Positions 10,100 through 25,817 are shown, numbered from the stretch's first letter. The stretch is 26,160 nt of DNA from a bacterium (GCA_021160245.1 JAGHCW010000153.1:1-26160), one strand, 5' to 3'. A program made the numbers and translations. The notes: a model not told the origin generated them from the letters alone.

Positions 10100-10666
10100 A
10101 TGGCCGTTACTGATGACCAACTTATTGATCAGGTTCTAGCGGGCGATACGGGCAGTTTTGAGGAGCTCGTAGGTCGGTATCGTAACCAAGTTTTTAACTT
10201 CATATTGCGACTCTTGGGGAGTCGAGATGATGCGGAGGATATCCTCCAGGATACGTTTATGAAGGTATATCAAAGTTTGCCTCGTTATCAAAAGCGTGCT
10301 AGGTTCGCAAGTTTCCTTTTCACAATTGCGCATAACCTCTCGATGAACAGGATAAATTACAGAAAGCGTTCGCTTCTGAAGCTGGATACGCTTTCTCAAT
10401 CATCCGACACCAAGAGCACAATGGACAGAACTCCTGACGCGGAGTTGAGGGAAGATGAGATATCAATTGTTGTACATAGAGCGATAGACAAGTTGCCTCC
10501 GAAGTATCGGGCCGCGTTGGTCCTTAGCGAGTTTGAGGGATTTTCCTATAAACAGATTGGCCAGGTCTTAAATTGCTCCGTGGGAACGGTGAAGTCCCGC
10601 ATATTTAGGGCTAGGGACCTCTTAAGAGGGCATTTGAAAGATTATGAAGAAAAAGGACTGCAGTAA
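10100..10666 (+). CDS. ECF-type RNA polymerase sigma factor
   Basis: A 188-residue sigma-70 family ECF factor. Region 2 spans about 20-90: FEELVGRYRNQVFNFILRLL, then DAEDILQDTFMKVYQSL (region 2.2, core-RNA-polymerase binding), then FASFLFTIAHNLSMNRIN (2.4, -10 recognition). Region 4 spans about 122-180: AIDKLPPKYRAALVLSEFEG, FSYKQIGQVLNCSVGTVKSRIFRAR (helix-turn-helix for -35 recognition). It lacks regions 1 and 3, as expected for ECF factors of the RpoE/SigW kind. Its stop codon lies 23 nt inside the next gene, a zinc-finger anti-sigma factor, the classic arrangement for a cognate pair. It heads the T2SS operon, so secretion is probably among its targets. The stimulus is not apparent. Confidence 0.93.
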   Translation: MAVTDDQLIDQVLAGDTGSFEELVGRYRNQVFNFILRLLGSRDDAEDILQDTFMKVYQSLPRYQKRARFASFLFTIAHNLSMNRINYRKRSLLKLDTLSQSSDTKSTMDRTPDAELREDEISIVVHRAIDKLPPKYRAALVLSEFEGFSYKQIGQVLNCSVGTVKSRIFRARDLLRGHLKDYEEKGLQ

Positions 10667-11318
10667 ACGGCGGATTCACATTTCCGCTTATATCGATAAC
10701 GAGCTGTCTGGATGGCGTCTGGTTGAACTTGAGTCGCACCTCGCGGTCTGCCGGGAGTGTTCAGATTATCTCAAGTCACTGAAATTGCTTTCGGGGAGGA
10801 TCGGGCAATTGACACGGCTTGTTCCGGGCGATGAGGTTATCGCCGGGCTCATGGCCGAAATTCGCTCGCAGAAATTCGCTGAGCGGAGGACTCCGGTTTT
10901 AGGTTTTGGCTTCAGCAATGCCCGCTGGGGGCTTGCGGCCGCGGCAGTTACTGTTCTTTTCTTCTCGTTGTTTATTTGGATGTATATGCCGGGCGGGTTG
11001 CCAAGAGAGACGGCGATGAACACTGCGTCTGACAGTGAGCGGGTCTTGACGGAGAGTTCAGACGCCGATCTGTCCAAGACGATCGCCTCAGACCTCGACA
11101 AGGCGAAGTCGCAATTGCTAGCCGAATTGATCGAGGAAGATCTAGATGAGAGCGACGCCTCGTTGGATGCGGATGATGTTGGACCGTCTGAGGCGAAGAG
11201 CTCATCTTCGGACGAATCCGACGGCCGAGTTGTGCATACACTCAATTTTGGGAAGACGCCGGCAGCGCGCACTTCAGTGTCATCTCACGTGCTTTACGTG
11301 AGTTACGGGAATAGGTGA
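10644..11318 (+). CDS. Membrane-bound zinc-finger anti-sigma factor
   Basis: A 224-residue protein overlapping the sigma factor gene by 23 nt. The N-terminal cytoplasmic anti-sigma (zf-HC2-type) domain contains ISAYIDNELSGWRLVELESH and the HLAVCREC ligand motif (H32, C36, C39), with C6 or H12 as likely fourth ligand. One transmembrane helix, about 95-115 (WGLAAAAVTVLFFSLFIWMY), is followed by a periplasmic tail of about 105 residues. The tail is strikingly acidic and Ser/Asp-rich (about 128-195) and unlike a folded sensor domain. The expected role is to hold the ECF factor inactive at the inner membrane until a signal triggers release, probably by proteolysis in the periplasm. The next gene begins inside its stop codon (GTGA, 11315-11318). 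Confidence 0.85.
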   Translation: MKKKDCSKRRIHISAYIDNELSGWRLVELESHLAVCRECSDYLKSLKLLSGRIGQLTRLVPGDEVIAGLMAEIRSQKFAERRTPVLGFGFSNARWGLAAAAVTVLFFSLFIWMYMPGGLPRETAMNTASDSERVLTESSDADLSKTIASDLDKAKSQLLAELIEEDLDESDASLDADDVGPSEAKSSSSDESDGRVVHTLNFGKTPAARTSVSSHVLYVSYGNR

Positions 11319-12637
11319 TAGCATTGAGGAAGACGATTGGCTGCTTTGAAGGGAGATGTGGTTTGAGAATTGCTTTGATCTTTATGTTGGTATTTGCTCT
11401 ATCAGCAGTTCCTGCAGCCATCTCCTACGCTCAAGAGAGCTACGATTTGGGCAACCGTCTCTTTGCCAGCCGCGACTACTTAAAGGCACAGAACGCTTAT
11501 GAGAAGGCAATACGCGAGAGTAGTGGCGAGATAGCGGCGCACTCGAGATATATGCTTGGCCGGAGTTTTGAGGAATTGGACAATTGGCAGAAGGCGGAGG
11601 AAAACTATCAGCTACTGTGGAGACTTGCCCCAAGGAGCTCATGGGCTGATGATGCGCTCCTGCTCGTTGCCACCCACCTCGCCTCGTCGCAGAATCCGGA
11701 CGATTTGAATCGCGCAAAAAAACTCTGTGAGAAGCTGCGCACGCTCTACCCTAATTCACCGTTGTTCGCCGAGGCATCCTGCATATTGGGCGAGACTAAC
11801 ATCCGACTCGGGAACTTTGACGAGGCGTTCAAGACTCTCGTTGAGGTTATTCAGAGGGACGATGCGTGCGATATCTTCGATCGCGCCTATTTTGCTCTTG
11901 GTCGGCTCTATTCAGATCCCCATAATCCGAAGAAGGATTTGGACAAGGCACTCGATGCGTTCAAGTGGGTAACTGAGCAGACGCCGGAAAGCTGCTATGC
12001 CTCGTGGGCGAACTTCTCCGCGGGGAACATTCTTCGGCAGCAAAAGAAGTGGGAGCACGCTAAGTTATATTTCCAGGCGGTTTTGGATAGATATGACGGG
12101 ACATTCTGCGCCGCGGCTACGGTGCCCATCTTGGCGCTTTCGCGCGTTGAGCAGGAGCGGTTTCTGCGGGGTCGGGAGTCATTTGAGCAGCTCTTGAGGC
12201 TTATCCATAAGGGTCCGCGTCCAATTGGCGCAGCAAAAGCGGCTCCAACTGAACTGCCGACAGCAAAGGTGCTGCAGATTCAGATCATGGCCAGGGAAAC
12301 CTATTCGGACGACAAACGGGCTAGCTACAAGGGCGATGTTCGGGTTTCGGTCGGAGATATGAAGGTCTTCGCGGACCAGGCTGTCTGCGAGCTTCAGACG
12401 CATATTTTCCGCACATCGGGAGGGACGACCCTTCAGTTAAGGGATCGTTTTGCTCTCAACAGTCGGCGACTGACGTTCGACCTAAAAAATCAAAGAGGCA
12501 TCGCCTCAGGTGATGTTAGGTTTGTTCAGCGGGTCTCTGGCTCTGGAGGAGCCGCTGAGCCGAAGGTCCGGACGGTTCGGAGGCTCGAATTCCTGATCAA
12601 GGACGGTCAGATCGTTCCGGTCTCGGAGCAGGAATGA
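11315..12637 (+). CDS. Exported TPR protein with LptA/OstA-like C-terminal domain
   Basis: A 440-residue protein starting at GTG inside the anti-sigma stop. A signal peptide covers about 1-39 (ALIFMLVFALSAVPAAISYA) with likely cleavage before QESYD. Residues 42-300 carry tetratricopeptide-type helical repeats with the A..Y..A pattern (LFASRDYLKAQNAYEKAI, LGRSFEELDNWQKAEENY, LGETNIRLGNFDEAFKTL and further units), resembling BamD/YbgF-type proteins. Residues about 319-405 differ: YKGDVRVSVGDMKVFADQAVCEL and RRLTFDLKNQRGIASGDVRF resemble the beta-jelly-roll repeats of LptA/OstA proteins. The combination is unusual. Its position between the regulators and gspE, with 4-nt overlaps on both sides, implies a role with the secretion system, perhaps as a periplasmic assembly or envelope scaffold factor. 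That role is inferred from context only. Confidence 0.7.
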   Translation: MIALRKTIGCFEGRCGLRIALIFMLVFALSAVPAAISYAQESYDLGNRLFASRDYLKAQNAYEKAIRESSGEIAAHSRYMLGRSFEELDNWQKAEENYQLLWRLAPRSSWADDALLLVATHLASSQNPDDLNRAKKLCEKLRTLYPNSPLFAEASCILGETNIRLGNFDEAFKTLVEVIQRDDACDIFDRAYFALGRLYSDPHNPKKDLDKALDAFKWVTEQTPESCYASWANFSAGNILRQQKKWEHAKLYFQAVLDRYDGTFCAAATVPILALSRVEQERFLRGRESFEQLLRLIHKGPRPIGAAKAAPTELPTAKVLQIQIMARETYSDDKRASYKGDVRVSVGDMKVFADQAVCELQTHIFRTSGGTTLQLRDRFALNSRRLTFDLKNQRGIASGDVRFVQRVSGSGGAAEPKVRTVRRLEFLIKDGQIVPVSEQE

Positions 12638-14352
12638 GGGTCTCCTTTGAAACTCCTCAGATGCTCACTCGGTTGCTTGTCTCGACAGGCAAGGTCTCTG
12701 AAGAGGACTTGCAACAGGCGTTTCTGCAAAGGGACTCGTCCCGAGAAGGCGCCATAGACGCGCTTCTTCTGTCTCATAAGATCACAGAGGATGGCCTTGC
12801 GGCAGCTCTTTCGGAGTTCTTGGATTGTCCTTTGCTCAAGTACAATGAGTTTCCAGAGGAAGCCCTCGAGATCGAGGAGCTCTCGCCCAAGTTTCTAAAA
12901 GAGCATTACGTTCTTCCGCTTCGGTTTGAGGGCAACGATCTAGTAGTCGCGATGGCAGACCCTCTCGACAAGTACACACTCGACAACATCCGCCTCTGCA
13001 CAGGCAAAGGGGTGAAGGTCATCGTCAGTTCCCAAGCCGATCTACTTCGGGCTCTTGAGGACCGTTTCGGCGATGCGACTATGGACGAGATAATCGAGGA
13101 TATCGCGGAGGAGGACCTTGAGCTCTTAGGTACTGAGGAGGACGAGGACATTGATCATCTGCGCGACAAGGCGTTTGAGGCGCCAGTTATCAGGCTGGTG
13201 AACCTTCTCATCTCGCGAGCGGTTGAGGCTGGGGCGAGCGACATTCACATAGAGCCATTTGAGGGTCAATTGAAGATTCGCTATCGGGCGGATGGCGTTT
13301 TGCACCACGTTGAATCGCCACCTAGAGCGTTGGAGTCGGCGATTGTGTCAAGAGTTAAGATCATGGCGGACCTGAACATCGCCGAGCGCAGGCTTCCTCA
13401 GGATGGCCGTATTGGCTTGAAGGTTGGGGGCAAGAAGATCGACCTTCGTGTATCTACGGTTCCGACGATGCACGGCGAGAGCGTCGTGATGAGGATACTC
13501 GACAGGGAGAGTATGCGCTTCGATCTTATGACCCTTGGATTTGAGAAGGACACGCTCGACAGGTTCCAGTTCCTGATCCGAAAGCCCCACGGTATTATTC
13601 TCGTCACCGGGCCCACGGGTAGCGGCAAGACGACGACGCTATTTGCCGCGCTCGATAAGATCAACTCGCCGGACAAGAAGATCATCACGGTCGAGGACCC
13701 TGTTGAGTACGAGCTGCCCGGCGTCAATCAGATAGAGGTCAAATCCAAGATAGGGCTTTCATTCGCCAGCGGCCTGCGCTCCATAGTTCGTCAGGACCCA
13801 GACGTGATTCTCATTGGGGAGATTCGCGATCTTGAAACGGCCGAAATAGCGGTGCAGTCCGCGCTGACAGGTCACTTGGTCTTCAGCACCGTTCATACAA
13901 ATGATGCTCCAACCACGATCACGCGGCTTCTAGATATGGGAGTTGAGAATTACCTTCTTGCCTCGACCGTTGAGGGGATTCTCGCGCAGAGACTTGTGCG
14001 ACGGCTCTGTCCCCTATGCAAGGAGGCTTATACGCCGAAGAAGGACGAGCTCGCACAGATCGGTATTCTGAATGGGCAGGATATTCCGAGCAAGATATAT
14101 CGAGCTGGCGGCTGCGACGAGTGCAGCAATACGGGCTTTAAGGGGCGCGTCTGCGTGAATGAGCTCCTGGTTATGGACGAGGAGATGTCGGGCCTTGTGC
14201 TTGAGGCAGCGGCCGCTCAGCGCCTCAGGCAGCACGCGAAGAAGAAGGGCACAAGGACGTTGAGAGAGGACGGGTGGATGAAGGTCGTATCTGGGCTAAC
14301 CAGCATCAGCGAGGTGCTGAGGGTGACTCAGGAGGAGCTGATCGATGAATAG
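12634..14352 (+). CDS. gspE: T2SS assembly ATPase GspE (PilB/VirB11 family)
   Basis: A 572-residue cytoplasmic hexameric ATPase that powers pseudopilus assembly. The N-terminal MshEN-type domain (about 10-147) carries the two typical LxxxLxxxGxxxxxxL units and a PLDKYTLDNIR segment. The catalytic core follows: ASDIHIEP (201-208), Walker A GPTGSGKTTT (326-335), Asp box ITVEDPVEY (351-359), Walker B-like VILIGEIRD (391-399), and His box GHLVFSTVHTNDA (413-425). The tetracysteine zinc motif is present as C459-PL-C462 and C494-DE-C497, as in GspE and PilB. Its ATG overlaps the TPR gene stop (ATGA, 12634-12637). Assignment to GspE rather than PilB rests on the surrounding gsp gene order. All key residues look intact. 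Confidence 0.95.
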   Translation: MRVSFETPQMLTRLLVSTGKVSEEDLQQAFLQRDSSREGAIDALLLSHKITEDGLAAALSEFLDCPLLKYNEFPEEALEIEELSPKFLKEHYVLPLRFEGNDLVVAMADPLDKYTLDNIRLCTGKGVKVIVSSQADLLRALEDRFGDATMDEIIEDIAEEDLELLGTEEDEDIDHLRDKAFEAPVIRLVNLLISRAVEAGASDIHIEPFEGQLKIRYRADGVLHHVESPPRALESAIVSRVKIMADLNIAERRLPQDGRIGLKVGGKKIDLRVSTVPTMHGESVVMRILDRESMRFDLMTLGFEKDTLDRFQFLIRKPHGIILVTGPTGSGKTTTLFAALDKINSPDKKIITVEDPVEYELPGVNQIEVKSKIGLSFASGLRSIVRQDPDVILIGEIRDLETAEIAVQSALTGHLVFSTVHTNDAPTTITRLLDMGVENYLLASTVEGILAQRLVRRLCPLCKEAYTPKKDELAQIGILNGQDIPSKIYRAGGCDECSNTGFKGRVCVNELLVMDEEMSGLVLEAAAAQRLRQHAKKKGTRTLREDGWMKVVSGLTSISEVLRVTQEELIDE

Positions 14353-14393: not shown

Positions 14394-15662
14394 GTGCCTG
14401 TTTTCGCCTATAAGGCTTCTGACAAGCGGGGAAATATCACTGAGGGCACGATGGACGCCCGGGATCAGGGCCTGGTAATTCGGGCGCTGCAAGACCGCGC
14501 TTTGTTCCCCTTGAACGTCGAGGCTTACGTGCCAAAGAAGGGGCTCTCGCTTGAGATCAGCCTCAAACAGCTGACCGGCAGGATACGCCAGCGGGATGTT
14601 CTGGCCACGACACAGCAGCTCTCAACGTTGATTAACGCCGGGGTGCCGCTTGATAAGGCGCTTGGTATAACGATTGATACGACGGATAGGGATCGATTTC
14701 GGCGCGTTCTTGAGAACGTCCGCAAGAGCGTTCAGGGCGGCAACTCGTTCGCTGACTCGCTTGCGAAGTACCCTCGGGTCTTCTCGAAGCTATATGTGAA
14801 CATGGCAAGAGCTGGGGAGCGCGGCGGTGTCCTTGAGTCGGTTATGAGCCGAATCGTGGGTTTTATCGAGAGCTCGCAGCAGATGAGAGACCACATCATC
14901 AGCTCGATGATCTATCCCCTGCTTTTGGTCGTCGCCGGCGGCGTGGCGGTCATCATCCTCTTGATGTTTGTCATACCGCGTTTCGCAATGATATTCGAGG
15001 ACATGGGCCAAGCTCTTCCGCTTCCGACACAGATGCTGATGTCTTTTTCCGATCTCGTCGCGCAGTATTGGTGGGCGATTCTCGCGGCGGCAGTGGCTGC
15101 GTTTATAGCCATCCGACAGGCGCTTAAGAACGACAAGAACGCCCTCGCATTTGACCGGTTGAAGTTGAGGACACCGGTTCTCGGCTCCTTGCTGCAGAAG
15201 ATCGAGGTGGCGCGATTTGCCCGCACGCTTGGCACTCTCATCCAAAACGGCGTGCCGATCATTCAGGCGCTGAGGATAGTCAAGGACATCATATCCAACC
15301 GGGTAATAGCCGATGCCCTATCTCGCGCAGCACGAGACGCCAACGGGATTGGGAAGGGAAAGGGCGCAAGAGACATAATATCGTCGATAACAAAGGGCAA
15401 AGGTATCTCGAAACCACTGGCAGAGAGCGGCGTTTTCCCCGTTCTAGCGGTCAGCATGGTAACGATTGGGGAGGAGAGCGGGCAGCTTGAGCAAATGCTG
15501 GAGAAGGTGGCGGACATCTACGAGCTTGAGGTCAAGAACGCGCTGAAACGCCTGATCAGCATGTTGGAACCGATGATGATCCTCATCATGGGCCTCGTCG
15601 TGGGGTTCATTGTAATCTCAATGCTTATGGCCGTTTTCAGCATAAACAATATCGCAATGTAG
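14394..15662 (+). CDS. gspF: T2SS inner-membrane platform protein GspF
   Basis: A 422-residue polytopic protein starting at GTG (MPVFAYKASDKRGNITEG), the standard GspF/PilC N-terminus. Two T2SSF domains: about 68-195, with QLSTLINAGVPLDKAL (75-90) and ARAGERGGVLESVMSRI (138-154), and about 270-400, with FARTLGTLIQNGVPIIQALR (275-294, domain-two repeat) and TIGEESGQLEQMLEKVA (357-373). Transmembrane helices at about 172-194, 223-242 and 391-416. An insertion rich in Gly/Lys (IGKGKGARDIISSITKGKG, 319-337) sits in the second domain and is longer than usual. It forms the inner-membrane base that couples GspE to the pseudopilus. It lies 41 nt after gspE. Confidence 0.95.
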   Translation: MPVFAYKASDKRGNITEGTMDARDQGLVIRALQDRALFPLNVEAYVPKKGLSLEISLKQLTGRIRQRDVLATTQQLSTLINAGVPLDKALGITIDTTDRDRFRRVLENVRKSVQGGNSFADSLAKYPRVFSKLYVNMARAGERGGVLESVMSRIVGFIESSQQMRDHIISSMIYPLLLVVAGGVAVIILLMFVIPRFAMIFEDMGQALPLPTQMLMSFSDLVAQYWWAILAAAVAAFIAIRQALKNDKNALAFDRLKLRTPVLGSLLQKIEVARFARTLGTLIQNGVPIIQALRIVKDIISNRVIADALSRAARDANGIGKGKGARDIISSITKGKGISKPLAESGVFPVLAVSMVTIGEESGQLEQMLEKVADIYELEVKNALKRLISMLEPMMILIMGLVVGFIVISMLMAVFSINNIAM

Positions 15663-15675
15663 AATGATAAAAAAT

Positions 15676-15681
15676 AGGAGG
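15676..15681 (+). promoter_or_regulatory. Strong ribosome binding site of the major pseudopilin
   Basis: AGGAGG, a full Shine-Dalgarno match, 8 nt before the gspG start. It is the best such site in the operon, consistent with the major pseudopilin being needed in excess. Confidence 0.7.
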
Positions 15682-15689
15682 AACCGATA

Positions 15690-16109
15690 ATGCAATTGGC
15701 GCGAGAACGACTCCTTTCTGCTTTTTTGAGTAGAAGGAACACTCGAGGCTTCACCCTCATCGAACTGCTGGTCGTCCTTGTAATACTGGGCCTCCTGGCA
15801 GCGATTGTTGTCCCGCAGTTCACAGGAAAAATCGACAAAGCCAAGATACAGACGACCAAAACACAGATACAGATGCTCATGACAGCTCTTGATTTACTCA
15901 AGGCGGACGTTGGGGAATACCCGGGCTCTCTTGAGGAGCTACTCTCGTCAAGCGCCTCGAACTGGGACGGCCCATATCTTAAGAAAAAGAAGATTCCGAA
16001 GGACCCCTGGGGTAACGATTACTCCTACTCGGTGATCGATGGCGGGCGCTCTTGCGAGATAACCTCTCAAGGCTCAAAGGACTCCGGTCCGATATCGAGC
16101 TCGGACTAG
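15690..16109 (+). CDS. gspG: Major pseudopilin GspG
   Basis: A 139-residue type IV pilin-like protein. The prepilin peptidase site is RG|FTLIELLVV with cleavage after G20, and the conserved Glu at +5 is present. The hydrophobic helix LLVVLVILGLLAAIVVPQF anchors and polymerises the subunit. The mature domain follows GspG closely: alpha-helix KAKIQTTKTQIQMLMTALDLLKADVGEYP, then the loop GPYLKKKKIPKDPWGNDY with the diagnostic PWGN/Y box. The C-terminal segment normally forming the calcium site (often SLGADG) reads SQGSKDSG here, so calcium binding may be altered. Expected to polymerise into the periplasmic pseudopilus. The gene is 27 nt after gspF. Confidence 0.95.
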   Translation: MQLARERLLSAFLSRRNTRGFTLIELLVVLVILGLLAAIVVPQFTGKIDKAKIQTTKTQIQMLMTALDLLKADVGEYPGSLEELLSSSASNWDGPYLKKKKIPKDPWGNDYSYSVIDGGRSCEITSQGSKDSGPISSSD

Positions 16110-16208
16110 CATCTCTCCGCGGCTGAAGTAATAGTCGTGCGCCGAGATGTTGTGGGGCCAGACCGGACGAGATGTGAGCTCTGGCCTCGATCCTTATTCG
16201 AGGGAATT

Positions 16209-17012
16209 ATGCTTACGTCAGGAGATGACAAGTTCATGCGCAGGCCGAAGATCACATTCGGAGGTTCACAGGCGCTTTTGCGATCACGAATCTCCAACCG
16301 CGAGCTGCAGAAGCAGAGAGCGACCGGAGGGTATCAGACTGACGAATGCGCAAGGGGCTTTACTCTCATAGAATTGATTGTCGTTCTCTTTGTGGCCGGC
16401 CTCATAAGCGCTTTTGTCCTGCCCTCGTTCATTGGGGGGCTTAGAGGCGCGAGGCTCAAGGGGGAGACCAAGCACCTTGCGGCGACTCTGCGATTCGCCC
16501 GAAGCCAGGCCGTCTGCTCAAAGGGCCTTGCCGTGGTCGCGATCGATCTGGATAAGAACAGCTACAAACTGACGATCAAGAAGAGCAAAGGTCGAGGCCA
16601 AGCGAGCGCCCAGAAGGGATTGGACCCGTTCGGCAACAGCTCTGGTGGCGATCTCAACTCCCCGCTCTTCGCCTCGCCCAAGTCTTCCGGTCGCTCGATG
16701 GATCTCGGTTCTCTAAACAGCCCGGGCGCGATGGACGACGGGCCAGCTAGAATGAAGGAGGGGGGCGGAGGTTCATCCCTCTCCAACAGACTCATGCGGG
16801 AGCGACAACTCCCCTCCGATGTGACAATCGCTAGTTTCACGTACGGCGATGAGACTTACGAGGATGGCGCGTGCAACGTTTTCTTCTTTCCACGGGGAAC
16901 CTCCACAGGCGCTCTGATAGAGGTTATGAGCGATTCGGGCGCGTCGTTTGTTATAGAAATAGAGCCTGTAACTGGCTCTGTGAAAATTAGGTCTCCCGAA
17001 GACGAATACTAG
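16209..17012 (+). CDS. gspH: Minor pseudopilin GspH-like, with large low-complexity insert
   Basis: A pseudopilin with RG|FTLIELIVVLF, Glu at +5, a TM helix and the GspH-like KHLAATLRFARSQAV segment that follows it. The start is uncertain. GTG 16137 gives a 74-residue leader, ATG 16209 (GAGGG, 4 nt spacing) a 50-residue leader, and ATG 16236 (AGGAG, 11 nt spacing) a 41-residue leader; all are far longer than usual (about 6-20). I list ATG 16209 (267 residues). The beta domain begins with GLAVVAIDLDKNSYKLTIKK, then is interrupted by about 69 residues rich in Ser, Gly, Pro and Lys (about 125-193), and resumes with LPSDVTIASFTYG...FFFPRGTSTGALIEV, matching the GspH C-terminal strands. Minor pseudopilins form the pseudopilus tip. 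Confidence 0.82.
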   Translation: MLTSGDDKFMRRPKITFGGSQALLRSRISNRELQKQRATGGYQTDECARGFTLIELIVVLFVAGLISAFVLPSFIGGLRGARLKGETKHLAATLRFARSQAVCSKGLAVVAIDLDKNSYKLTIKKSKGRGQASAQKGLDPFGNSSGGDLNSPLFASPKSSGRSMDLGSLNSPGAMDDGPARMKEGGGGSSLSNRLMRERQLPSDVTIASFTYGDETYEDGACNVFFFPRGTSTGALIEVMSDSGASFVIEIEPVTGSVKIRSPEDEY

Positions 17013-17035
17013 GTCTCCGCAGTTTGAGGAACGAA

Positions 17036-17500
17036 ATGAAGCACAATTCACGACGGCGAGGCTTCACTCTGCTTGAGGTCATGATCGCGATGGCGATTCT
17101 GGCAATTGGGCTTGTAACAGTGATGCAGCTCTTCGCCGGAGCATTGCGGCTCGGAAGGATTGATCGTGGATTGACTGAAGCGGTTCTCGTGGCGCAGAGG
17201 CGGATGGATGAGTTGCTCCTTATGACGGAGCTTGACGAGGGCTTTGAGGAGTCGGGAGAGGAGGACGGCTACTCCTGGACACAATATGCCGAACCACTCT
17301 ATGAAGGGGGATTGGGCGAGTCCGACGAGATGGAAGGACAGACTGCCGATTTCATAGAGCAGATTCAGGATGACGAAGCGGTCGTGCCCGTCAACGTATT
17401 CAAGTTGACGGTAACTGTGAAATGGCGGATTGGCGAGAGCTCAAACGAGCGAGAATATACATTAACGAGTTTGAAGGCGCTCTGCTTCCATGAGGATTAG
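17036..17500 (+). CDS. gspI: Minor pseudopilin GspI-like
   Basis: A 154-residue pseudopilin from ATG 17036, chosen because GAGGA (17026-17030) lies 5 nt upstream; a TTG at 17024 would add four residues. The leader is MKHNSRRRG with cleavage before FTLLEVMIAMAILAIG, the typical GspI N-terminus (FTLLEVMVA). Mature residues AVLVAQRRMDELLL match the conserved A...A...L pattern after the helix. An acidic loop (ELDEGFEESGEEDG) and a second acidic stretch (about 90-112) replace a usually short region. KLTVTVKWRIGESSNEREYTLTSLK forms the end strands, similar to GspI's VxVxW. The gene overlaps gspJ by 11 nt. Confidence 0.88.
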   Translation: MKHNSRRRGFTLLEVMIAMAILAIGLVTVMQLFAGALRLGRIDRGLTEAVLVAQRRMDELLLMTELDEGFEESGEEDGYSWTQYAEPLYEGGLGESDEMEGQTADFIEQIQDDEAVVPVNVFKLTVTVKWRIGESSNEREYTLTSLKALCFHED

Positions 17501-18290
17501 TTATGGACGTCGTGTATTTTCCAACAGAAGTGGGTTCACGCTTCTTGAGCTCCTGATCGCGGGCACTATTACGGCGATTATCGTCGTCTTAATCCTCTCA
17601 GCATTTCAGGTGGCCTCAAAAGCCTGGGCGGTTGGAGAGCGCCGAGGCGAAAGCACGCAGCGGACTCGCGTGGCCATCTCACATCTGATCGGGGACATCA
17701 AATCTGCGTATCCATCGAAGGTCAGGATGTTTGAGCAGGCCGGACGGACACGTCTAAGCCGGGTTTTGCTCTTCTCTGGGCTCTCGGACAGCATCAGTTT
17801 CGTCACAAAGGAGAGTGGAATCTCGGGTGAGGAGAACGCCTTTGGGGTCCGGTCGGTGACCTACTTTGTCAACTCGTCGGGTGCGGACGATGAGGCGGGG
17901 CTGGTTGTTCGGGAGGGCAATCCGTTTGTGGAGGAGCCTTTCGAGAATGGTGTGACGTTCCAGCTCGACCCAAACGTAACGTCCATTTCGTTTCGGTACT
18001 TCTTTGATCCGAACATCCGCTCCCGATTCAGCAGTTTCGTGGGGAAGGTGGCGGAGAGGGAGCCGGGGGAGTGGCTCGACGAGTGGGACTCGTACGGCGA
18101 GGGGTCATCTGAAATCGGTCTGAGCGTTGAGCAAGGGAAGGAAGTTCAGCGCTTCTTGCCCAAGTCCGTTGAGATAACGATGACGGTGATCCAAGATGGC
18201 GAGGAGCGAACGCTTGAGCCATTTATTGTGCCAATCATGAATCGGCAGATATCGCTTTCCAGTGGGATAGCAGAGGTGGAGGAGTTCTGA
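17490..18290 (+). CDS. gspJ: Minor pseudopilin GspJ-like
   Basis: A 266-residue pseudopilin overlapping gspI by 11 nt. The leader is 15 residues, cleaved in SG|FTLLELLIAGTITAII, with Glu at +5. The following RTRVAISHLIGDIKSAYPS matches the GspJ pattern of a polar helix ending in a DI segment. The beta domain contains VTYFVN (about 129-134), LVVREGNPF, and VTSISFRYFFDPN (about 178-190), which corresponds to the GspJ strand that reads v..l.frY.d. A long acidic/Gly-rich stretch between about 200 and 227 is extra. It is expected in the tip complex with GspI and GspK. The gene ends 4 nt before gspK. Confidence 0.88.
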   Translation: MRISYGRRVFSNRSGFTLLELLIAGTITAIIVVLILSAFQVASKAWAVGERRGESTQRTRVAISHLIGDIKSAYPSKVRMFEQAGRTRLSRVLLFSGLSDSISFVTKESGISGEENAFGVRSVTYFVNSSGADDEAGLVVREGNPFVEEPFENGVTFQLDPNVTSISFRYFFDPNIRSRFSSFVGKVAEREPGEWLDEWDSYGEGSSEIGLSVEQGKEVQRFLPKSVEITMTVIQDGEERTLEPFIVPIMNRQISLSSGIAEVEEF

Positions 18291-18294
18291 GACG

Positions 18295-19464
18295 ATGAAG
18301 CGGAGGCAACGTAGCCTAAGTCATAAGGTCCGGACTCTCGGCGCAGGCGCAGAGAGCAGCGGCTCTTGGATTGCAGGGCTCAGGCGCGAAATCGGTGGCC
18401 TATTGCAGTCAATGTGGAGGACGAGCGCAAACGACAGGCGGGGCATCGCACTGCTTATGACGATTTGGATAATGATCCTGCTGACTGTGATGGCGCTTGA
18501 GTTTTCGTTTGCAAAGCGAGTTGACCTGACGGTGGCGGTCAACTTTCGGGACGAGATGCAGGCCTATTACTACGCCATGGCAGGCGTCAACATGGCGATG
18601 GCGGAGCTTTTGTCAAAGCAGCACTATTTCGGCAGCGGCGGAGGGCTCTATTTCGTCGCTCGTCAGGTCAAATGGGACGATGCGGGCGATGTTGAGCTGG
18701 ACGAGGCGTCTCCCAATAGAACGGATGTACAGCTCGGCAGAGGCTCATTCACTTATGAGCTCGTCGATGAGCGTCGAAAGCTGGACATAAGACTCTCGAG
18801 TAATGACGATCGATTTTTGGACCTTCTCGTAAACTCGGGCGTTGATGAGATGACGGCGGACACTATTCTCGATTCGCTGAAGGACTGGCGAGATGCCGAC
18901 GATACGCGTCGCCTCAATGGAGCGGAGGATGAGTACTATCAGGCTAATTACGAGGAGCACGGTATGCCAGAGCCATATCTAGCCAAGAATGATCAGCTCG
19001 ACTCGGTGCGGGAGCTGTTGCTCATAAATGGCGTGACTCCCGAGATTCTCTTTGGTTCGGGCAACATTGAGAACTATGGTTACCGTGAGGAGTCGGGCAC
19101 AGATGACGATGGCGATACCTATTCCGGTGTTTACGATCTTCTGACAATTTGGGGAAGCTCGCTCTATTACGATACTGCAAGCGACGAGCTTTTGGATGGA
19201 TTGACGAATGACACGAGGGCTCAGGATGAGCTCGATCGGCGAGAGGATGAGGATTGGAACTACCAAACTGCATCGACGCATCCGATAACTTCGTCGAAGT
19301 TCACAATCACGTCGACCGGAAGAGTTAGGAACACTGAGGTTGCGCGAACGGTTGTTGCAGTAGTGAGAAAAGTTGGAACTGTGAGGAATCCACGCGTTGA
19401 GATACTTGAGTGGCACGATAATTATGTTGGTTCCGCCTATATGCAATTTGGCGGTGAGTTTTAG
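18295..19464 (+). CDS. gspK: Minor pseudopilin GspK
   Basis: A 389-residue protein. The N-terminal leader is very long (about 50 residues) and ends in DRRG|IALLMTIWIMILLTVMALEF. As expected for GspK there is no Glu at +5 (Met here). RDEMQAYYYAMAGVNMAMA (85-103) is the usual GspK post-helix segment with the AyyaAeAG-like pattern. GSFTYELVDERRKLDIRL (150-167) precedes the helix-rich insertion domain with SLKDWRDADDTRRLNGAEDEYY (194-215), which in GspK carries acidic calcium-binding residues, and LDSVRELLLINGVTPE. This matches the T2SSK family well. GspK caps the pseudopilus and is thought to limit its length and recruit substrate. The start at 18295 has GGAGG upstream; an internal ATG at 18412 would give a 10-11 residue leader but has no visible ribosome binding site. 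Confidence 0.92.
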   Translation: MKRRQRSLSHKVRTLGAGAESSGSWIAGLRREIGGLLQSMWRTSANDRRGIALLMTIWIMILLTVMALEFSFAKRVDLTVAVNFRDEMQAYYYAMAGVNMAMAELLSKQHYFGSGGGLYFVARQVKWDDAGDVELDEASPNRTDVQLGRGSFTYELVDERRKLDIRLSSNDDRFLDLLVNSGVDEMTADTILDSLKDWRDADDTRRLNGAEDEYYQANYEEHGMPEPYLAKNDQLDSVRELLLINGVTPEILFGSGNIENYGYREESGTDDDGDTYSGVYDLLTIWGSSLYYDTASDELLDGLTNDTRAQDELDRREDEDWNYQTASTHPITSSKFTITSTGRVRNTEVARTVVAVVRKVGTVRNPRVEILEWHDNYVGSAYMQFGGEF

Positions 19465-19492: not shown

Positions 19493-21367
19493 ATGGTCTC
19501 ACTACAATCGAGTCTTAGCATTCTCTTCAAACGCGACAGGGTGATACTGACGCACTTAGGGAAGGGCTTTACGAAGTACACGCTCCTGCAGCATGAGGTT
19601 ATCGACCTTAATGGTTCGGAAGACCGCTCTGAGGAGCACCTTGATATTATCACTCAAAACGGAATATCGCACTTTCTGGAGCAGCACAAGATCAAGCCAG
19701 ATTGCATCTCGATAGGCATCCCCCGGAGTAGCGTTTTCTTTGCGTTCATAAAATTACCGAAAGTCCAGGGGGCGAATGTCAAAGACCTACTTGATTACGA
19801 GATCGAGCGCCATGTGCCACTGCCGTCCAGCGCCATTTACTACGATGGCCAAGTGGTCGGGGAGGCCGGGCAGGACGGCGGACTTTTGAACATTGCGATT
19901 GTAGCAGCCCCCAGAGGTTTGGTGGAACGTTACGCCAACATCGTCTCGCAGATAGGATTGACACCATCTTCCATCAAGGTAGCAGCGCTTGGGCTCTCGG
20001 ATTTTTTCAACCTCTTCGAATCCCCGTTGAATGGCTCGTCTATGGCCCTGGTGGACTGTGATGAGACCGAGGCCGATGTACTTATTCTAAAGGGAGGGGA
20101 GCTGCGGCACTGTCGGACGATTTCTCTTGAATGCGAGAGTCAAGCGGTCCATGGAACTTCTTCCGAGGCGAATAGAATTTCCGAGACGGGCGATTATGGC
20201 ATCCTAGGCGCCGGGGAGATGGCGGAGTCCCCGGGTTTTAGGGACGATATGACCACAAAGAGGGCGCAGTGTATTCTCGACGAGCTTGCCGCTTACGCAG
20301 ACGGCTCGGCTGAAAATACCTACATAGATGAGATATGCCTTTCAGGCGAATATCGAAGTACGCTTCTGCTTCAAGGCGCCCTATCTGAGCTGGGATTCAG
20401 TGGTCGCGTCAGGACGCTCCAGCCTAACATAAGAATGCGCTCAATGCTGTCTGCAGATAAGGCGAGCTCGCTCTGCCCGGCAATAGGTTTGGGCACAAGC
20501 GATCTTGATGAGGCCAAGGGAGGCATCAACCTCTTGCCCCCGGAGCTCAGGGCAAGTCGGACACTTTACGGCAAGAAGTTCATGATCGGCCTTTCCATAG
20601 CGCTTTGCCTGATGCTCATGGGTGGTATTTCCAGTAGCGTCATAAAGAAGAAGATGGCGGTTGATTTTCTGCAAACCAAGGTCAACTCGCTTGAAGACGA
20701 GGTGAAGCTGATAGCTGAGACCCGCAGCAAGTCGCGAGAGTGGAGCAGCTTGCTCAAGGAGTTGAGGTTGGTTGGTTTGGAGACGCTCAATCCGTTACTA
20801 GTTCTCAAGGAGCTCGACCGGCTCTTGCCTCATGAAGGTGAGGAGAAGGTTTGGCTGACCAACTTCCGCCTCAAGGGTACATCTCTCTCGATAGACGGTC
20901 TTTCTGATAAGCCGGAGGGGATACTCGGTCGTCTTGAGGAGTCTCCGCTCTTTATGAACGCGGGCTTCGAGGGCCGGACAACTTCTCGGAAGGATACCGA
21001 GCGTTTCGGTGTTGTTCTGGAGATTGATCTCGCGGGCCAATCGCAGCTACTAGAACCACAATTGAGAACAGAAATCATTGAGGAGCCGTTGGGGCCTCTT
21101 CCGCCCGAGGGCTTCGAACCTCTTGATCCTGATGAGTTTGATGAGGAGCTAGAGGATGACCTCGAGCATCAGGATAATGGAGTTCAGAATTTCCCTCTTC
21201 GCAATCCTCTTCTCGGGCCAAATCAGCGCGATACATTTGAGGATGACGGACTGAAGCTGCCGCTACGTAGCCCTCTTGGGCGGCGCTATCCCGCTACCGG
21301 CTCAGGTGCGTCGCGTTCTCTCGATGCGAGGGATGATGCGGATGAGACCGAGGAGGAGCAGGATTGA
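19493..21367 (+). CDS. gspL: T2SS assembly platform protein GspL (PilM-PilN type fusion) with acidic tail
   Basis: A 624-residue protein. Residues 1-335 form an actin-like PilM/GspL cytoplasmic domain (FIKLPKVQGANVKDLLDYEIERHVPLP is split here as IKLPK 86-90 and DYEIERHVPLP 101-111; also MALVDCDETEADVLIL, and DEICLSGEYRSTLLL 279-293), which recruits GspE. INLLPPELR (345-353) is the PilN signature, followed by one membrane helix (about 362-382), a coiled-coil stretch (388-425) and a ferredoxin-like periplasmic domain (430-515) ending in VVLEIDL. A further ~105 residues (520-624) are acidic, Pro-rich and apparently disordered, and contain two copies of a PLR[NS]PL motif. That tail is not part of standard GspL. 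The gene is coupled to gspM through TTGA (21364-21367). Confidence 0.88.
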   Translation: MVSLQSSLSILFKRDRVILTHLGKGFTKYTLLQHEVIDLNGSEDRSEEHLDIITQNGISHFLEQHKIKPDCISIGIPRSSVFFAFIKLPKVQGANVKDLLDYEIERHVPLPSSAIYYDGQVVGEAGQDGGLLNIAIVAAPRGLVERYANIVSQIGLTPSSIKVAALGLSDFFNLFESPLNGSSMALVDCDETEADVLILKGGELRHCRTISLECESQAVHGTSSEANRISETGDYGILGAGEMAESPGFRDDMTTKRAQCILDELAAYADGSAENTYIDEICLSGEYRSTLLLQGALSELGFSGRVRTLQPNIRMRSMLSADKASSLCPAIGLGTSDLDEAKGGINLLPPELRASRTLYGKKFMIGLSIALCLMLMGGISSSVIKKKMAVDFLQTKVNSLEDEVKLIAETRSKSREWSSLLKELRLVGLETLNPLLVLKELDRLLPHEGEEKVWLTNFRLKGTSLSIDGLSDKPEGILGRLEESPLFMNAGFEGRTTSRKDTERFGVVLEIDLAGQSQLLEPQLRTEIIEEPLGPLPPEGFEPLDPDEFDEELEDDLEHQDNGVQNFPLRNPLLGPNQRDTFEDDGLKLPLRSPLGRRYPATGSGASRSLDARDDADETEEEQD

Positions 21368-21924
21368 AAAAGCTCACAGCTCGTGACCGCAAATTACTGA
21401 TTGTCGCTTTGCTGGCAGTAGTCTGCTACCTCGTCTATTTCTTTGTTCTTGGGCCAATCATCGAATATAGCGCGGAGCTTTCGGAGGAAAAAGACACGCT
21501 GCAGTTCCGCTATGAGAAGAGCATCAAGGCGATTTCGCAAAAGGCTGCCCTGGAAGCCGAGCTCAATGAGCTCAAAAGGATCGGAGCAGAGCTCACAGAC
21601 CGCCTGATTCCATCTACTAATGTCAAAGTCGCGGGCGCGAAGCTCCAGCAGACGTTGGATGGCTTTTTGCAGAAGGCCAGGCTCAAGACGCGAAGCAAGA
21701 AGATTCTAAAGACGGAGGAGCGTGGTGGTTTCATGGCGGTGCCGGTCGAGCTCAACGCGACGGGGACCCCTTCACAGCTCAAGGATTTTCTCACGCGGCT
21801 GATGAACGACAAAATGCTCCTTCAGATTAAGAAGCTCGACATTAGACCAGAGAACCAGCGCGACCCTCACAGTGTTATTATAGAAGCAGTAGTTGTTGGG
21901 TATGTAGTCACGAAAGCGCCTTAA
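21364..21924 (+). CDS. gspM: GspM / PilO-like inner-membrane protein
   Basis: A 186-residue bitopic protein starting at TTG within the gspL stop, with a GGAGGAG-like stretch just upstream. A short cytoplasmic N-terminus, one transmembrane helix (about 10-30, LLIVALLAVVCYLVYFFVLG), a coiled coil (35-78, heptad-like SAELSEEKDTLQFRYEKS...ELNELKRIGAEL) and a periplasmic ferredoxin-like domain (about 85-184). The domain includes FMAVPVELNATGTPSQLKDF (123-142), the PilO-type signature (vpv.l...G....l..Fl..l), and LLQIKKLDIRPEN. It should dimerise with GspL in the inner-membrane platform. Sequence similarity is closer to the PilO branch than to enterobacterial GspM, in keeping with the PilM-PilN style of the upstream gspL. 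Confidence 0.85.
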   Translation: MKKLTARDRKLLIVALLAVVCYLVYFFVLGPIIEYSAELSEEKDTLQFRYEKSIKAISQKAALEAELNELKRIGAELTDRLIPSTNVKVAGAKLQQTLDGFLQKARLKTRSKKILKTEERGGFMAVPVELNATGTPSQLKDFLTRLMNDKMLLQIKKLDIRPENQRDPHSVIIEAVVVGYVVTKAP

Positions 21925-21938: not shown

Positions 21939-22694
21939 TTGTTTCGGAAGTTGTTTCTCATAAATCTCTCGCTCTTTGCCGCGGCAGTTCTCTCTGCCAT
22001 GTGGCTGGTGGATATCTGGCAGTCATCTCTGGCCGCTGAGATCAAGACTAACCCGGCTGCGCCCAAGCGCATAGCGAGAAGCGAGTACACATTTGACAAG
22101 ATAGAAGCCGGCTCGGGCTACGAGCTCATGGTTGACCGCGATCTCTTCAGGCCGGATAGAAAGCGCTATATTCCGCCTGAGCCCAAGCCGAAGCCCAAAC
22201 CGCTGTCGGAAGCCGAAAAGAAGATAAAACCGAACTTCTGCGTAGTCGGCATAATGATACTCTCCGAGACGAACAAGTACGCAATAGTCGGCGAAAAGCC
22301 CGCAAAGAAAATAGTACCCAAGAAGCCGGCCAAGCGAAAACGACGCTCGAGGCGCCGGCCCCGAAAGACGAAGAAGGCGAAGACTCCGCCACCCGAGAAT
22401 CTACTGAAAGCGAAGTCCTATCGTTGGGGTGAAGAGATCAAGGATGGTTGGTTCATTTCAGAGATCAAGCCGACGATCGTCGTCTTCTCAAACGGCACCG
22501 AGATATTCGAGGTGTCAGTGGACAAATCGAAGATACCTGAGCAAGACAAAGTAGCAGAGAGTAATAAGAATGAGAAGAGGCCCGGTAGGAAAGTAACTTC
22601 CCCATTCACAAAGAGGAAGCCGTTGCCACCCGACAAGGACGAGGCCACTCAGCGGTTTCTCGATGCCCTGAAGAAGGCGGGCAAGAAAAGATGA
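21939..22694 (+). CDS. gspC: GspC-like protein with polybasic insert and no PDZ domain
   Basis: A 251-residue protein from TTG 21939 (GGAG at 21926-21929, 9 nt upstream). A membrane anchor at about 7-27, then MVDRDLFRPDRK (64-75), which corresponds to the RdlF motif opening the GspC homology region. The homology region reads FCVVGIMILSETNKYAIVGEK (100-120, split by a long insert) and resumes with YRWGEEIKDGWFISEIKP (161-178) and IVVFSNGTEIFEV (180-192), the strands that bind the secretin N0 domain. Between them lies a very basic Lys/Arg/Pro-rich stretch (about 120-150). The C-terminus (195-251) is again basic and shows no PDZ or coiled-coil domain. It should link the inner-membrane platform to GspD. 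PilP is an alternative label; position between gspM and gspD fits both. Confidence 0.75.
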   Translation: MFRKLFLINLSLFAAAVLSAMWLVDIWQSSLAAEIKTNPAAPKRIARSEYTFDKIEAGSGYELMVDRDLFRPDRKRYIPPEPKPKPKPLSEAEKKIKPNFCVVGIMILSETNKYAIVGEKPAKKIVPKKPAKRKRRSRRRPRKTKKAKTPPPENLLKAKSYRWGEEIKDGWFISEIKPTIVVFSNGTEIFEVSVDKSKIPEQDKVAESNKNEKRPGRKVTSPFTKRKPLPPDKDEATQRFLDALKKAGKKR

Positions 22695-22756
22695 TAGAAT
22701 GGAGAAAGGGGCGAGCCGCAACCGACGTTAGAAAACAACCGACCCAGGGAGTCAAT

Positions 22757-25222
22757 ATGTCTTATAATTCGAGGTTTTCGCACAGCCGCGGGAAATGGGC
22801 TGACCTTATTATCGTTATGGTTTTGACGGCCTTTCTAGTCAGCGGCTGTTCACTGTCCCATAAGCAGGATGACTTGGCGGCCCCTCCAGCGACTCAATCC
22901 CAAGGAATGAGCGAATCGCCCGGGGCTCAGCCTTCGGACGAGAAAATCGCCGGTGATGAAGAGATGCGTAAGCAGGCTGAGAAGGCGCCTGCAGAAGAAA
23001 GCAAAGAGTCCACGCCAACTGACGCGACGATCGTCGCAGAGAACGCTGCAGACGAGGAGGAGAGCGAAGCGGCATCTCCATCGAAGCAGGAGCCGGCGAC
23101 TGATAGACTGCTATTCTCCTCAACCTCAGAAAAACCCAAGGAATCACTCTCAAGGGACCTTGAGGAACGAGAGACCTGGCCATACCTGACGCTTGAGGCA
23201 GCCCCGATAGAGGATGTCCTTGAGATGTTTATCAAGGTCATGCCGGAGCGTGGGACGTTCAACTACATCGTGGACCCGGCGGTAAAGACGAAGAAGATCA
23301 CCACACGCTTTTGGCGTCCCGTTAGGCCTGAAAACCTGTGGTACATCCTCCAGTCAATACTGACGATGAACGGCCTTGCGATGATAGATTCTGGACGAGA
23401 CTTTTACAAAATCGTGCCTCTTCAGACTGGTAAGCAGCTACCCATCGACACTTATGTCGGACGAACCGGAGATCACCTCGAGCTCACGGATGTCCTCGTT
23501 ACCCAAGTAATCCCAACAGAGCACATCATGCCGTCCTCGCTTCTGAAGCTTATCAAGCCGTTTCTTTCGGGAGCATCATTTGAGATAGCCAACGACGAGA
23601 CGATGCTCATGATCATCACAGACCTCGCGTCCAACATCAAGCGCGCCATGACATTCGTGAAGCTACTCGATGTTCCGTTGGCGACTGAGGACCTCAAGGT
23701 CTATCCGATTCAGTACGCCGACGCGGGTGAGGTTGCCTCAATACTCGATAAACTCTTCGCCTCAAAAAGCAAGAAGAGCACGGCCGCCTCAACCCGGAGC
23801 AAGCGTAGGACGTCAAAATCGCGATCGAGAAGGAGCCCGGCGTCCAGCACAACCGGCTCTCTCGGAGGTTTTGCGGAGAAGCCCGTGATCATCACTGACA
23901 AGCGCTCCAACTCGCTGATTATCCTCGGCCGGAAGGCGGCGCACGAGGCTGCAAAGACGGTAATCGAGATGTTGGATGTTGACATCTACGGCGCCTCAAA
24001 GACCTACGTATATTATCTTGAGCATGCCGAAGCCAAGTCGATGGCCTCGCTTCTGACAAGTCTGTATGGCAAGGGCAAGTCGACTAGCTCTCGAAAGAGC
24101 ACGACGAAAACGAGGACTCCTTTCAGTAGTAAGGTTCGGAGCAAGGGTGGTTCCGGAACGGTCGCTTCCGGAAGCGTCAGTGGCGAGGTAACCATTGTCG
24201 CGGATGAACACACGAACGCATTGATAATTATGACAGACCCGACCAACTACCCCGAGATCAGGCAGACGATTGAGGCGCTTGATATTCAACCAAAACAGGT
24301 TTTGATCGAGGTGTTGATTGCGGAGCTCACACTCGATAAGACAACGCAATTTGGGCTTGAATGGGCGCTGAAGGGACGCGGCAGCATGCAGGTTGGTGGT
24401 GAGGAGTTCAATGTCTTGTCTGACATCGCTCAATCGCTTCAGATTCCGACGGGCAGCGGGTTTGTATTGAGCATTCTTGACGGCGAGAGGCTCAAGACTT
24501 TGCTGAATGCTTATGCGAATGAATCCAAGCTCAACGTTCTATCCAATCCACGCATCATTTCATCCAATAATCAGGAGGCGAAGATATCCGTCGGCAAAGA
24601 CGTCCCCATTGTGACGAGCGAGACGTCAAGCGGCACGTCCTCGATAAGCAACAACCTTGATGTCAGGAGGACCATTCAATACAAAGAGACAGGTGTTATC
24701 CTGACCGTCAAGCCGCACGTGAATGAGCAAAAGAAAGTCAAGCTGGAGCTTAGCCAGACAGTATCCGACGCTCAGACAAACAAAATCGGCGGCTCCGACT
24801 CCCCAATCGTCAATCGTCGTGAGGTCAAGACAACCGTCTTTGTTGATGATCAATGCACCTTGCTCCTCGGCGGAATGATCAAGAAGAACGTCAACACCGC
24901 CAAGGAGGGCATTCCCTACTTGATGGACATCCCGTTGCTCGGGAAGCTATTCTCCTCAACATCCATTCTGGAGACGAATACAGAGCTTCTTATACTCATC
25001 ACGCCCAGAGTCATCGATTCGCACGAAGATAGCATTAAGGTAATTGATGACTACGAGAGCGCTATGAAGGGCCTATATGAGGAAATCCGTAAGCGACGAG
25101 GAACGTTCTGGCGAGATATTCAGAAAAAGTCCGAAGACGAAGACAATGATGAAGAATCTGAGACCGAATCGTCGGATGAAACGGAAACTGAAGCGAAGAC
25201 CGAGCCAGACTCAGAGAAATGA
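22757..25222 (+). CDS. gspD: Outer-membrane secretin GspD, predicted lipoprotein
   Basis: An 821-residue secretin. ATG 22757 is preferred because GGGAG lies 5 nt upstream and it gives a lipoprotein signal ending LVSG|C with the lipid-accepting Cys31; ATG 22691, overlapping the gspC stop, would add 22 residues before it. An acidic linker (32-138) leads to N0 (about 141-223, TLEAAPIEDVLEMFIK), N1 (240-308), N2 (312-410) and N3 (414-511). The secretin domain (about 515-753) contains VLIEVLIAELTL, SNPRIISSNNQEAKISVGKDVP, and the terminal LLGKLFSS...TELLILITPRVI. Two Ser/Lys/Arg-rich inserts (335-372 and 439-475) interrupt N2 and N3. The C-terminus (790-821) is highly acidic. It forms the outer-membrane pore. 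The lipid anchor could replace the need for a separate pilotin. Confidence 0.93.
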   Translation: MSYNSRFSHSRGKWADLIIVMVLTAFLVSGCSLSHKQDDLAAPPATQSQGMSESPGAQPSDEKIAGDEEMRKQAEKAPAEESKESTPTDATIVAENAADEEESEAASPSKQEPATDRLLFSSTSEKPKESLSRDLEERETWPYLTLEAAPIEDVLEMFIKVMPERGTFNYIVDPAVKTKKITTRFWRPVRPENLWYILQSILTMNGLAMIDSGRDFYKIVPLQTGKQLPIDTYVGRTGDHLELTDVLVTQVIPTEHIMPSSLLKLIKPFLSGASFEIANDETMLMIITDLASNIKRAMTFVKLLDVPLATEDLKVYPIQYADAGEVASILDKLFASKSKKSTAASTRSKRRTSKSRSRRSPASSTTGSLGGFAEKPVIITDKRSNSLIILGRKAAHEAAKTVIEMLDVDIYGASKTYVYYLEHAEAKSMASLLTSLYGKGKSTSSRKSTTKTRTPFSSKVRSKGGSGTVASGSVSGEVTIVADEHTNALIIMTDPTNYPEIRQTIEALDIQPKQVLIEVLIAELTLDKTTQFGLEWALKGRGSMQVGGEEFNVLSDIAQSLQIPTGSGFVLSILDGERLKTLLNAYANESKLNVLSNPRIISSNNQEAKISVGKDVPIVTSETSSGTSSISNNLDVRRTIQYKETGVILTVKPHVNEQKKVKLELSQTVSDAQTNKIGGSDSPIVNRREVKTTVFVDDQCTLLLGGMIKKNVNTAKEGIPYLMDIPLLGKLFSSTSILETNTELLILITPRVIDSHEDSIKVIDDYESAMKGLYEEIRKRRGTFWRDIQKKSEDEDNDEESETESSDETETEAKTEPDSEK

Positions 25223-25244
25223 CATTAGATCGATGGAGGAATAA

Positions 25245-25817
25245 ATGCGACGATATTTAGCGATAATGGCCATATCCCTGCTCGCTGTCACGATGGCCCT
25301 CGCGGGATGCTCCCGCCGAGACGACGATAGCTCGGACGACTCTACATCGACTATATGGGGTCTTCGAATGACCGCCATCGAATCGATGACAGGTCTCACA
25401 TACGTTGACGCAAGCGTGGATGCCGCCGACTTGGGCGTCGATGATGCTGCCGTGGTCTATGTGATCAACAGATATCCTGACTACTATGTGGATACGGACG
25501 GCGACATTGACCCCATGTACAACGTCGTTGTCACCAAGTATCATGTTGACCTTGCCATAGCCGGGTATTCCCCTTTCACCTTCCAGCGCAGCATTTATAT
25601 GGAGATTCCTGCATCCACAACGGACGAGACGGTCTCCTTGAACGCCATCGTAGTTCCCGCCATCCTCAAGTCCCAGATCGCGACGATTGTGGATGCTGAG
25701 GGAGGCCTCGTCGAAGCCGCCGCGACTATCCGCCTCGAGGGTGAGTTCGGCAGCGGCGAGGATGCCTGGACCACCGGCCGCGTCCAGGTCAGGATCACCT
25801 CGGAGAGCGCGTTGTAG
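25245..25817 (+). CDS. Small lipoprotein of unknown function at the end of the T2SS operon
   Basis: A 190-residue protein with a clear lipoprotein signal peptide (MRRYLAIMAISLLAVTMALAG before Cys22, lipobox LAGC). Gly-Gly-Ala-Gly-Gly-Ala (GGAGGA) just before the ATG supports the start. After a short Asp/Ser-rich linker (25-35) the mature part is mostly predicted beta strand (TYVDASVDAADLG, VVTKYHVDLAIAG, QRSIYMEIPAS) with the acidic DTDGDIDP turn (about 84-91), possibly calcium-binding. No family recognised. It follows gspD by 22 nt in the same direction, so it is probably co-transcribed and may be a pilotin-like helper, an accessory outer-membrane lipoprotein, or a secreted client. Confidence 0.75.
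   Translation: MRRYLAIMAISLLAVTMALAGCSRRDDDSSDDSTSTIWGLRMTAIESMTGLTYVDASVDAADLGVDDAAVVYVINRYPDYYVDTDGDIDPMYNVVVTKYHVDLAIAGYSPFTFQRSIYMEIPASTTDETVSLNAIVVPAILKSQIATIVDAEGGLVEAAATIRLEGEFGSGEDAWTTGRVQVRITSESAL

Follow-up and report, generated by a model that had tools for sequence, protein, structure and literature searches.

Where a T2SS operon lies directly behind genes for an ECF sigma factor and an anti-sigma factor, does this pair control the secretion machine? The question is raised by a stretch of 26,160 nucleotides (the window), a whole contig (C4) of the 3.43 Mb draft genome G000, for which the original prediction had the sigma system adjusting the whole machine. To our knowledge, little is understood about how bacteria other than a few proteobacteria match T2SS expression to need. 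The best gspE match among named genomes belongs to Candidatus Coatesbacteria, a little-known candidate phylum of uncultured bacteria, and comparisons were made within four genomes of this group from three genera (G000 to G003). With a probability of about 0.72, we read the locus as an autoregulated ECF sigma/anti-sigma module that would head a complete T2SS operon and a small, unlinked regulon of secreted proteins.

Composition and conservation of the operon

From the sigma gene to the lipoprotein gene, all main genes lie on the plus strand and either overlap, as several do, or are separated by at most 45 nt, in the order sigma, zf-HC2 anti-sigma, TPR, gspE-F-G-H-I-J-K-L-M-C-like-D, lipoprotein (Table 1).

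Table 1. Predicted features of the T2SS operon and of its upstream region (window coordinates).
Feature	Position	Strand	Basis or remark
Distal sigma70-type promoter-like element, TATACA-N18-TATAAT	9948..9977	+	10/12 match
Predicted ECF promoter, GGAACC-N17-GTTTTAC	10045..10074	+	identical in three genomes/genera
ECF sigma (sigma2 + sigma4)	10100..10666	+	Pfam, NCBIfam, orthologues
Anti-sigma, zf-HC2	10644..11318	+	Pfam, alignment
Secreted TPR protein, LptA/OstA-like C-terminal domain	11315..12637	+	Pfam
gspE	12634..14352	+	TIGR02533, 682 bits (cut-off 630)
gspF	14394..15662	+	PF00482 (T2SSF); TIGR02120 just below cut-off
gspG, major pseudopilin	15690..16109	+	TIGR01710 above cut-off
gspH-like minor pseudopilin	16137..17012	+	N_methyl at residue 73; XpsH/GspH below cut-off
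gspI-like minor pseudopilin	17024..17500	+	N_methyl
gspJ-like minor pseudopilin	17490..18290	+	N_methyl just below cut-off; operon position
gspK	18295..19464	+	PF21687
gspL (PilM-PilN-like)	19493..21367	+	Pfam
gspM	21364..21924	+	T2SSM_b
gspC-like, HR-type region	21939..22694	+	weak GspC_delta match; position
gspD secretin, N-terminal lipobox LVSGC	22691..25222	+	TIGR02517 above cut-off
Small lipoprotein, no known family	25245..25817	+	61% identical in G002

The ORF coordinates bore out most of the spacing described originally, namely the 23-nt overlap of the sigma and anti-sigma genes, the 4-nt overlap (ATGA) of the TPR gene with gspE, which is present in all four genomes, and the short gaps, none above 42 nt, through gspD and the terminal lipoprotein. 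A second 4-nt overlap, proposed between the anti-sigma and TPR genes, holds only with the GTG start at 11315. The likely TPR start is TTG 11363, preferred because AAGGGAG precedes it, a signal peptide directly follows and the relatives fit it better; the corresponding spacing is 31 nt in G002 and 20 nt in G003.

The sigma factor (188 aa) has the composition of the ECF class, with Sigma70_r2 (PF04542) and Sigma70_r4_2 (PF08281) joined by a short linker as its only domains, and TIGR02937 scored above cut-off. The protein encoded next combines the class I motif (H-x3-C-x2-C, here HLAVCREC; PF13490 at 34.8 bits, cut-off 22.2) with one hydrophobic segment, read at about residues 94-115. Its zf-HC2 domain is predicted to be cytoplasmic and its tail, ending SHVLYVSYG, periplasmic. 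In the original prediction the anti-sigma would sense envelope or secretion status; no sensor domain was recognised in this periplasmic part of about 100 residues, where strong conservation is confined to the end (SHVL-F/Y-VSYG). The zf-HC2 domain is single in the window's anti-sigma (10644-11318) and occurs as two tandem copies in the G002 and G003 orthologues (L106 4519-5406; L108 1057-1971); judging by these orthologues, the difference is a domain gain or loss inside one anti-sigma family. Each of the four genomes also encodes another, conserved ECF sigma (L013, L010, L011, L012), which shares about 30-35% identity with that of the window.

The system was assigned as a T2SS and not as a type IV pilus because GspE, GspG and GspD exceeded the curated T2SS cut-offs, whereas PilB and PilQ stayed under theirs. 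D, E, F, G, the minor pseudopilins, K, L and M were all found; the match for C was weak, and no PDZ domain was found in the gspC-like protein. In the G002 orthologue of the TPR protein, PF03968 (LptA/OstA-like) scored above cut-off. The annotated start of the gspH-like gene probably lies too far upstream. A lipobox-like motif is also present in the G002 GspD.

At one end of the contig, adjacent genes encode a type II restriction enzyme and a methyltransferase (2-607 and 612-2147, plus strand; strong PADLOC matches to REase_II and MTase_II). An OLD/AAA_15-type ATPase gene (4899-6401, minus strand), which resembles the defence ATPases PD-T4-4_A, AriA and GajA, is adjoined by a gene for a 171-aa protein without a known family. 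Just 3' of the operon, a HEPN-like gene (25856-26160, plus strand; weak PF05168) is cut by the contig end.

The order sigma, anti-sigma, TPR, gspE and subsequent genes is kept in G002 and G003, members of two other genera, with sigma orthologues of 77-79% identity. The arrangement is therefore not due to chance, nor is the neighbourhood unique to this genome. In G001 the contig starts inside the TPR gene, so that TPR-gspE sits at the contig edge. No sigma gene precedes gspE in the outgroup loci L015 (unclassified bacterium) and L016 (CSSED10-310), and the ECF-headed layout therefore looks phylum-specific within the Coatesbacteria branch.

A search inside the operon, the interval between the regulators and gspE included, revealed neither a strong promoter nor a strong terminator: promoter-like sites numbered 16, versus 11.4 (sd 3.1) in shuffled sequences, and terminator-like sites 18, versus 15.8. 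The operon is likely one transcription unit. For the continuous 15.7-kb unit of the original prediction, the gene order and the near-shuffle level of internal signals are as expected, and co-transcription is what they suggest. It is nevertheless conceivable, if unlikely, that the sigma-type promoter drives sigma, anti-sigma and perhaps the TPR gene only, that transcription of the T2SS relies mainly on weaker housekeeping promoters within the operon, and that the neighbourhood is kept for another reason. Internal starts are frequent in long operons, and weak sigma70-like matches do occur inside this one, for example at 15664-15691 before gspG. Against this stand the site counts just given, close to those of shuffles, and the 4-nt TPR/gspE overlap shared by four genomes, which leaves no space for a terminator at that point. 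Control of the whole machine by the sigma factor is most likely, because the operon is probably a single unit, its order is conserved and a conserved ECF-type promoter stands at its head. On these grounds the proposal that the sigma system adjusts the whole machine gains support.

The predicted head promoter and its recurrence at other loci

Alignment of the region upstream of sigma revealed two strong blocks amid otherwise diverged DNA. The proximal block, GGAACC-N17-GTTTTACA, stands about 25 nt ahead of the sigma start, with 13 fixed bases at a fixed spacing in three of three genomes, and has the usual form predicted for an ECF promoter, with an AAC-type -35. The distal block, TATACA-N18-TATAAT, recurs in G002 and G003 with hexamers and spacing unchanged; it may drive a basal level of operon expression, or be part of the promoter region of the divergent gene. 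This divergent gene (7205-9886, minus strand) encodes a secreted AhpC/TSA-like protein with Big_5, and G002 has, at the corresponding place, a divergent gene whose N-terminus is similar. A weak internal site inside gspM (21851-21880, 11.1 bits) was discarded as chance-like in 26 kb.

Autoregulation is usual for ECF sigmas with a co-encoded anti-sigma (review PMC8103513). Here, the zf-HC2 gene overlaps the sigma gene and the conserved footprint precedes it; from the position and conservation of this footprint, the sigma factor is probably autoregulated. With zero mismatches, the motif occurs once in the 3.43 Mb of G000 and once in G003.

A motif built from the sigma promoters only was then searched with at most one mismatch. 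Elsewhere in the genomes it recurs before two loci that are shared between genera. Such sites precede a gene for a VIT/vWA protein in G000 and G003, and a gene for an M1-type peptidase, or the gene before it, in G000 and G001. The chance of one such orthologous pair is below 0.001, a rough hand estimate (about 41 cross-genome hit pairs, each about 4e-5 per given upstream region, times about 0.2). In G002 the vWA site, found by orthology, is GGAACC-N17-GTTTATT (3 mismatches), its distance from the start nearly matching that in G003, so that the secreted VIT/vWA protein has a site before three of three orthologues; no orthologue was found in G001, whose contig also does not include the sigma promoter region. 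For the secreted M1-type peptidase, sites are present in three of four genomes and weak in the fourth. The G002 site, AGAACC-N17-GTTTCAC, was already a 2-mismatch match and was identified via orthology; that of G003 scored 8.8 bits versus a null 95% level of 8.4, at the same position as in G001 and G002. The G000 site precedes not the peptidase gene itself but a gene for a 324-aa protein directly 5' of it. This locus (L165 450-9085) encodes a TonB-dependent receptor, ExbB, ExbD, the 324-aa secreted protein and the M1-type peptidase together, so that TonB-type genes adjoin a gene that the T2SS sigma is predicted to control.

Leaving the sigma gene aside, the intergenic sites of the 1-mismatch search that are followed by a gene within 150 nt all precede signal-peptide genes, except for one pair. 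In that pair, the motif is exact and a HIT-domain gene follows it at about 70 nt (L116 1429-1458 and L117 1501-1530, both minus strand); it occurs in G001 and G002, of the same genus, and was not seen in G000 or G003, and no tRNA is present there. The core pattern RGAACM-N16-TGTTTWW gave seven matches in the 12.4 Mb of the four genomes, all at the sigma, vWA and peptidase loci, versus four for the reversed pattern. Since the core had been relaxed to include the known sites, this specificity is partly circular, and its informative part is therefore that no extra matches appeared. Genome-wide, the 2-mismatch motif was not above its reversed control and was dropped as a sole criterion.

The probable targets of the sigma factor are thus the T2SS operon that contains its gene and a small number of genes for secreted proteins. 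Because the same promoter signature precedes the latter, the machine and its probable cargo appear to be induced jointly. T2SS cargo is not something that sequence alone can reveal; the VIT/vWA protein and the M1-type peptidase are perhaps such cargo and are retained as candidates.

These sites bear on two further explanations. It is improbable that the sigma factor is a general envelope-stress sigma of the RpoE/SigW kind that merely carries the T2SS operon among targets such as periplasmic chaperones. Its best NCBIfam matches are indeed SigW, SigE and RpoE, all under cut-off, and a PpiC/SurA-like lipoprotein gene of G000 has a 1-mismatch site; however, this site lacks the TG, G000 has a single exact copy of the motif, and conserved sites occur at three loci only. 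Least probable of all is that another sigma or regulator binds the GGAACC element while this sigma works elsewhere: the pairing is a deduction and each genome has at least one paralogous ECF sigma, but an element directly before the sigma gene in three genera and unique in the genome fits autoregulation (PMC8103513).

Known and parallel systems

The autoregulated module proposed here can be set beside known systems. The original prediction regarded a T2SS under a co-encoded anti-sigma sensor as unusual; the arrangement itself stands, and its rarity is tempered by an experimental precedent, VreI/VreR-Hxc of P. aeruginosa, and by the ECF-headed operons common in Acidobacteriota.

In P. aeruginosa, VreI/VreR is encoded beside the hxc T2SS, and induces hxc and its substrate LapA (PMC2729926, PMC7035377). 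In VreA-VreI-VreR (PUMA3), as in the window, an ECF sigma and a membrane anti-sigma adjoin a T2SS cluster, and VreI also induces exbBD-like genes. HxcQ is a liposecretin (PMC2996285) and, given its N-terminal lipobox, the GspD of the window may be one too. In contrast, VreI is of the cell-surface-signalling kind, with the receptor VreA and dependence on PhoB, and Vre and Hxc are adjacent units, whereas the sigma of the window appears autoregulated within the T2SS operon. Its anti-sigma is of the zf-HC2 type, and the interval from the divergent AhpC/TSA gene to the lipoprotein gene contains no VreA-like receptor gene. Of what defines the VreIR-Hxc type, the adjacency was observed here, together with a shared promoter, and control of the T2SS and its cargo is predicted.

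Class I zf-HC2 pairs such as SigW-RsiW and SigR-RsrA share the sigma2-sigma4 structure, the overlapping anti-sigma gene, the AAC-type -35 and the deduced autoregulation; unlike in these pairs, the downstream operon is here a complete T2SS.

Adequate upstream sequence was available for 70 gspE loci of named genomes; in 11 of them an ECF sigma gene lies on the same strand 1.0-1.3 kb upstream. Nine of the 11 carry Acidobacteria-type names; the other two, L060 (named Arcobacter) and L092 (named Acidimicrobiia), have sigmas that group with Bryobacterales and are probably misnamed bins. At one locus (L021) the sigma gene lies on the opposite strand; the remaining 58, one of them (L017) named Acidobacteriota, lack one. 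In a sample of the phylum to which the genome of L061 belongs, taken as Acidobacteriota from the name of L061 (Bryobacterales), a sigma was present at 22 of 32 gspE loci, plus one weak case (L232). With this case counted as without, 33 of 44 Acidobacteriota-type loci (11/12 and 22/32) have a same-strand ECF sigma upstream, versus 0 of 58 other loci (57 without any sigma, and L021).

As in the window, the Acidobacteriota operons begin with sigma, an anti-sigma-like gene (where examined), a gene for a secreted protein and gspE-F-G, under their own conserved promoter. The loci read in detail encode a sigma, a membrane anti-sigma-like protein, a secreted protein of about 180 aa, and gspE; of these two proteins, Pfam recognised neither example that was searched. 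Apart from L232, their sigmas form one clade, separate from the Coatesbacteria sigma. Their promoter, GACTTTTT-N15-(CG/CA)TCTT, lies mostly 17-50 nt before sigma, and for GACTTTTT-N15-TCTT, 22 of 34 loci scored at least 10/11 versus 0.24 expected under a mononucleotide-shuffle null, with a few close relatives among the loci. The GGAAC promoter of the Coatesbacteria type was absent before these sigmas. A common origin of the two sigma groups was not supported (separate clades, in a tree without a broad ECF outgroup), and no sequence support was seen for homology between the TPR and ~180-aa proteins. The separate clade, the other promoter and the unrelated third gene point to probably independent recruitment, and T2SS operons led by their own sigma gene seem to have originated on two or more occasions.

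Proposed mechanism and significance

At rest, the zf-HC2 anti-sigma would keep the sigma factor at the inner membrane, and the distal sigma70-type promoter may supply a basal level of expression. A periplasmic or envelope signal would inactivate the anti-sigma, and the freed sigma would guide RNA polymerase to GGAACC-N17-GTTTTAC, giving sigma, anti-sigma, the TPR-OstA protein and the whole T2SS, a positive feedback on which the anti-sigma would act as a brake. The unlinked genes for the VIT/vWA protein and the M1-type peptidase, both candidate cargo, would be transcribed by the same sigma. In this scheme we infer the sigma-promoter pairing, the co-transcription and the cargo status.

A more far-reaching version, which is tentative and rather doubtful, would make this a dedicated T2SS regulon of machine plus VIT/vWA and M1 cargo, in which the conserved SHVLFVSYG tail reads assembly or load of the machine, a feedback switch coupled to secretion and evolved separately in Coatesbacteria and Acidobacteriota.

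The arrangement is real and non-random, and control by the sigma factor is a hypothesis well supported by the sequence. The ECF-headed T2SS layout is neither unique nor unprecedented; what is new here, beyond the original prediction, is the GGAACC-N17-GTTTTAC footprint and the probable wider regulon. An in-operon sigma switch with a recognisable promoter would make the T2SS cargo of uncultured phyla predictable from DNA alone. For testing it, cultivable organisms would be offered by the separate version in Acidobacteriota, with its own sigma clade, its own promoter and 33 of 44 loci.
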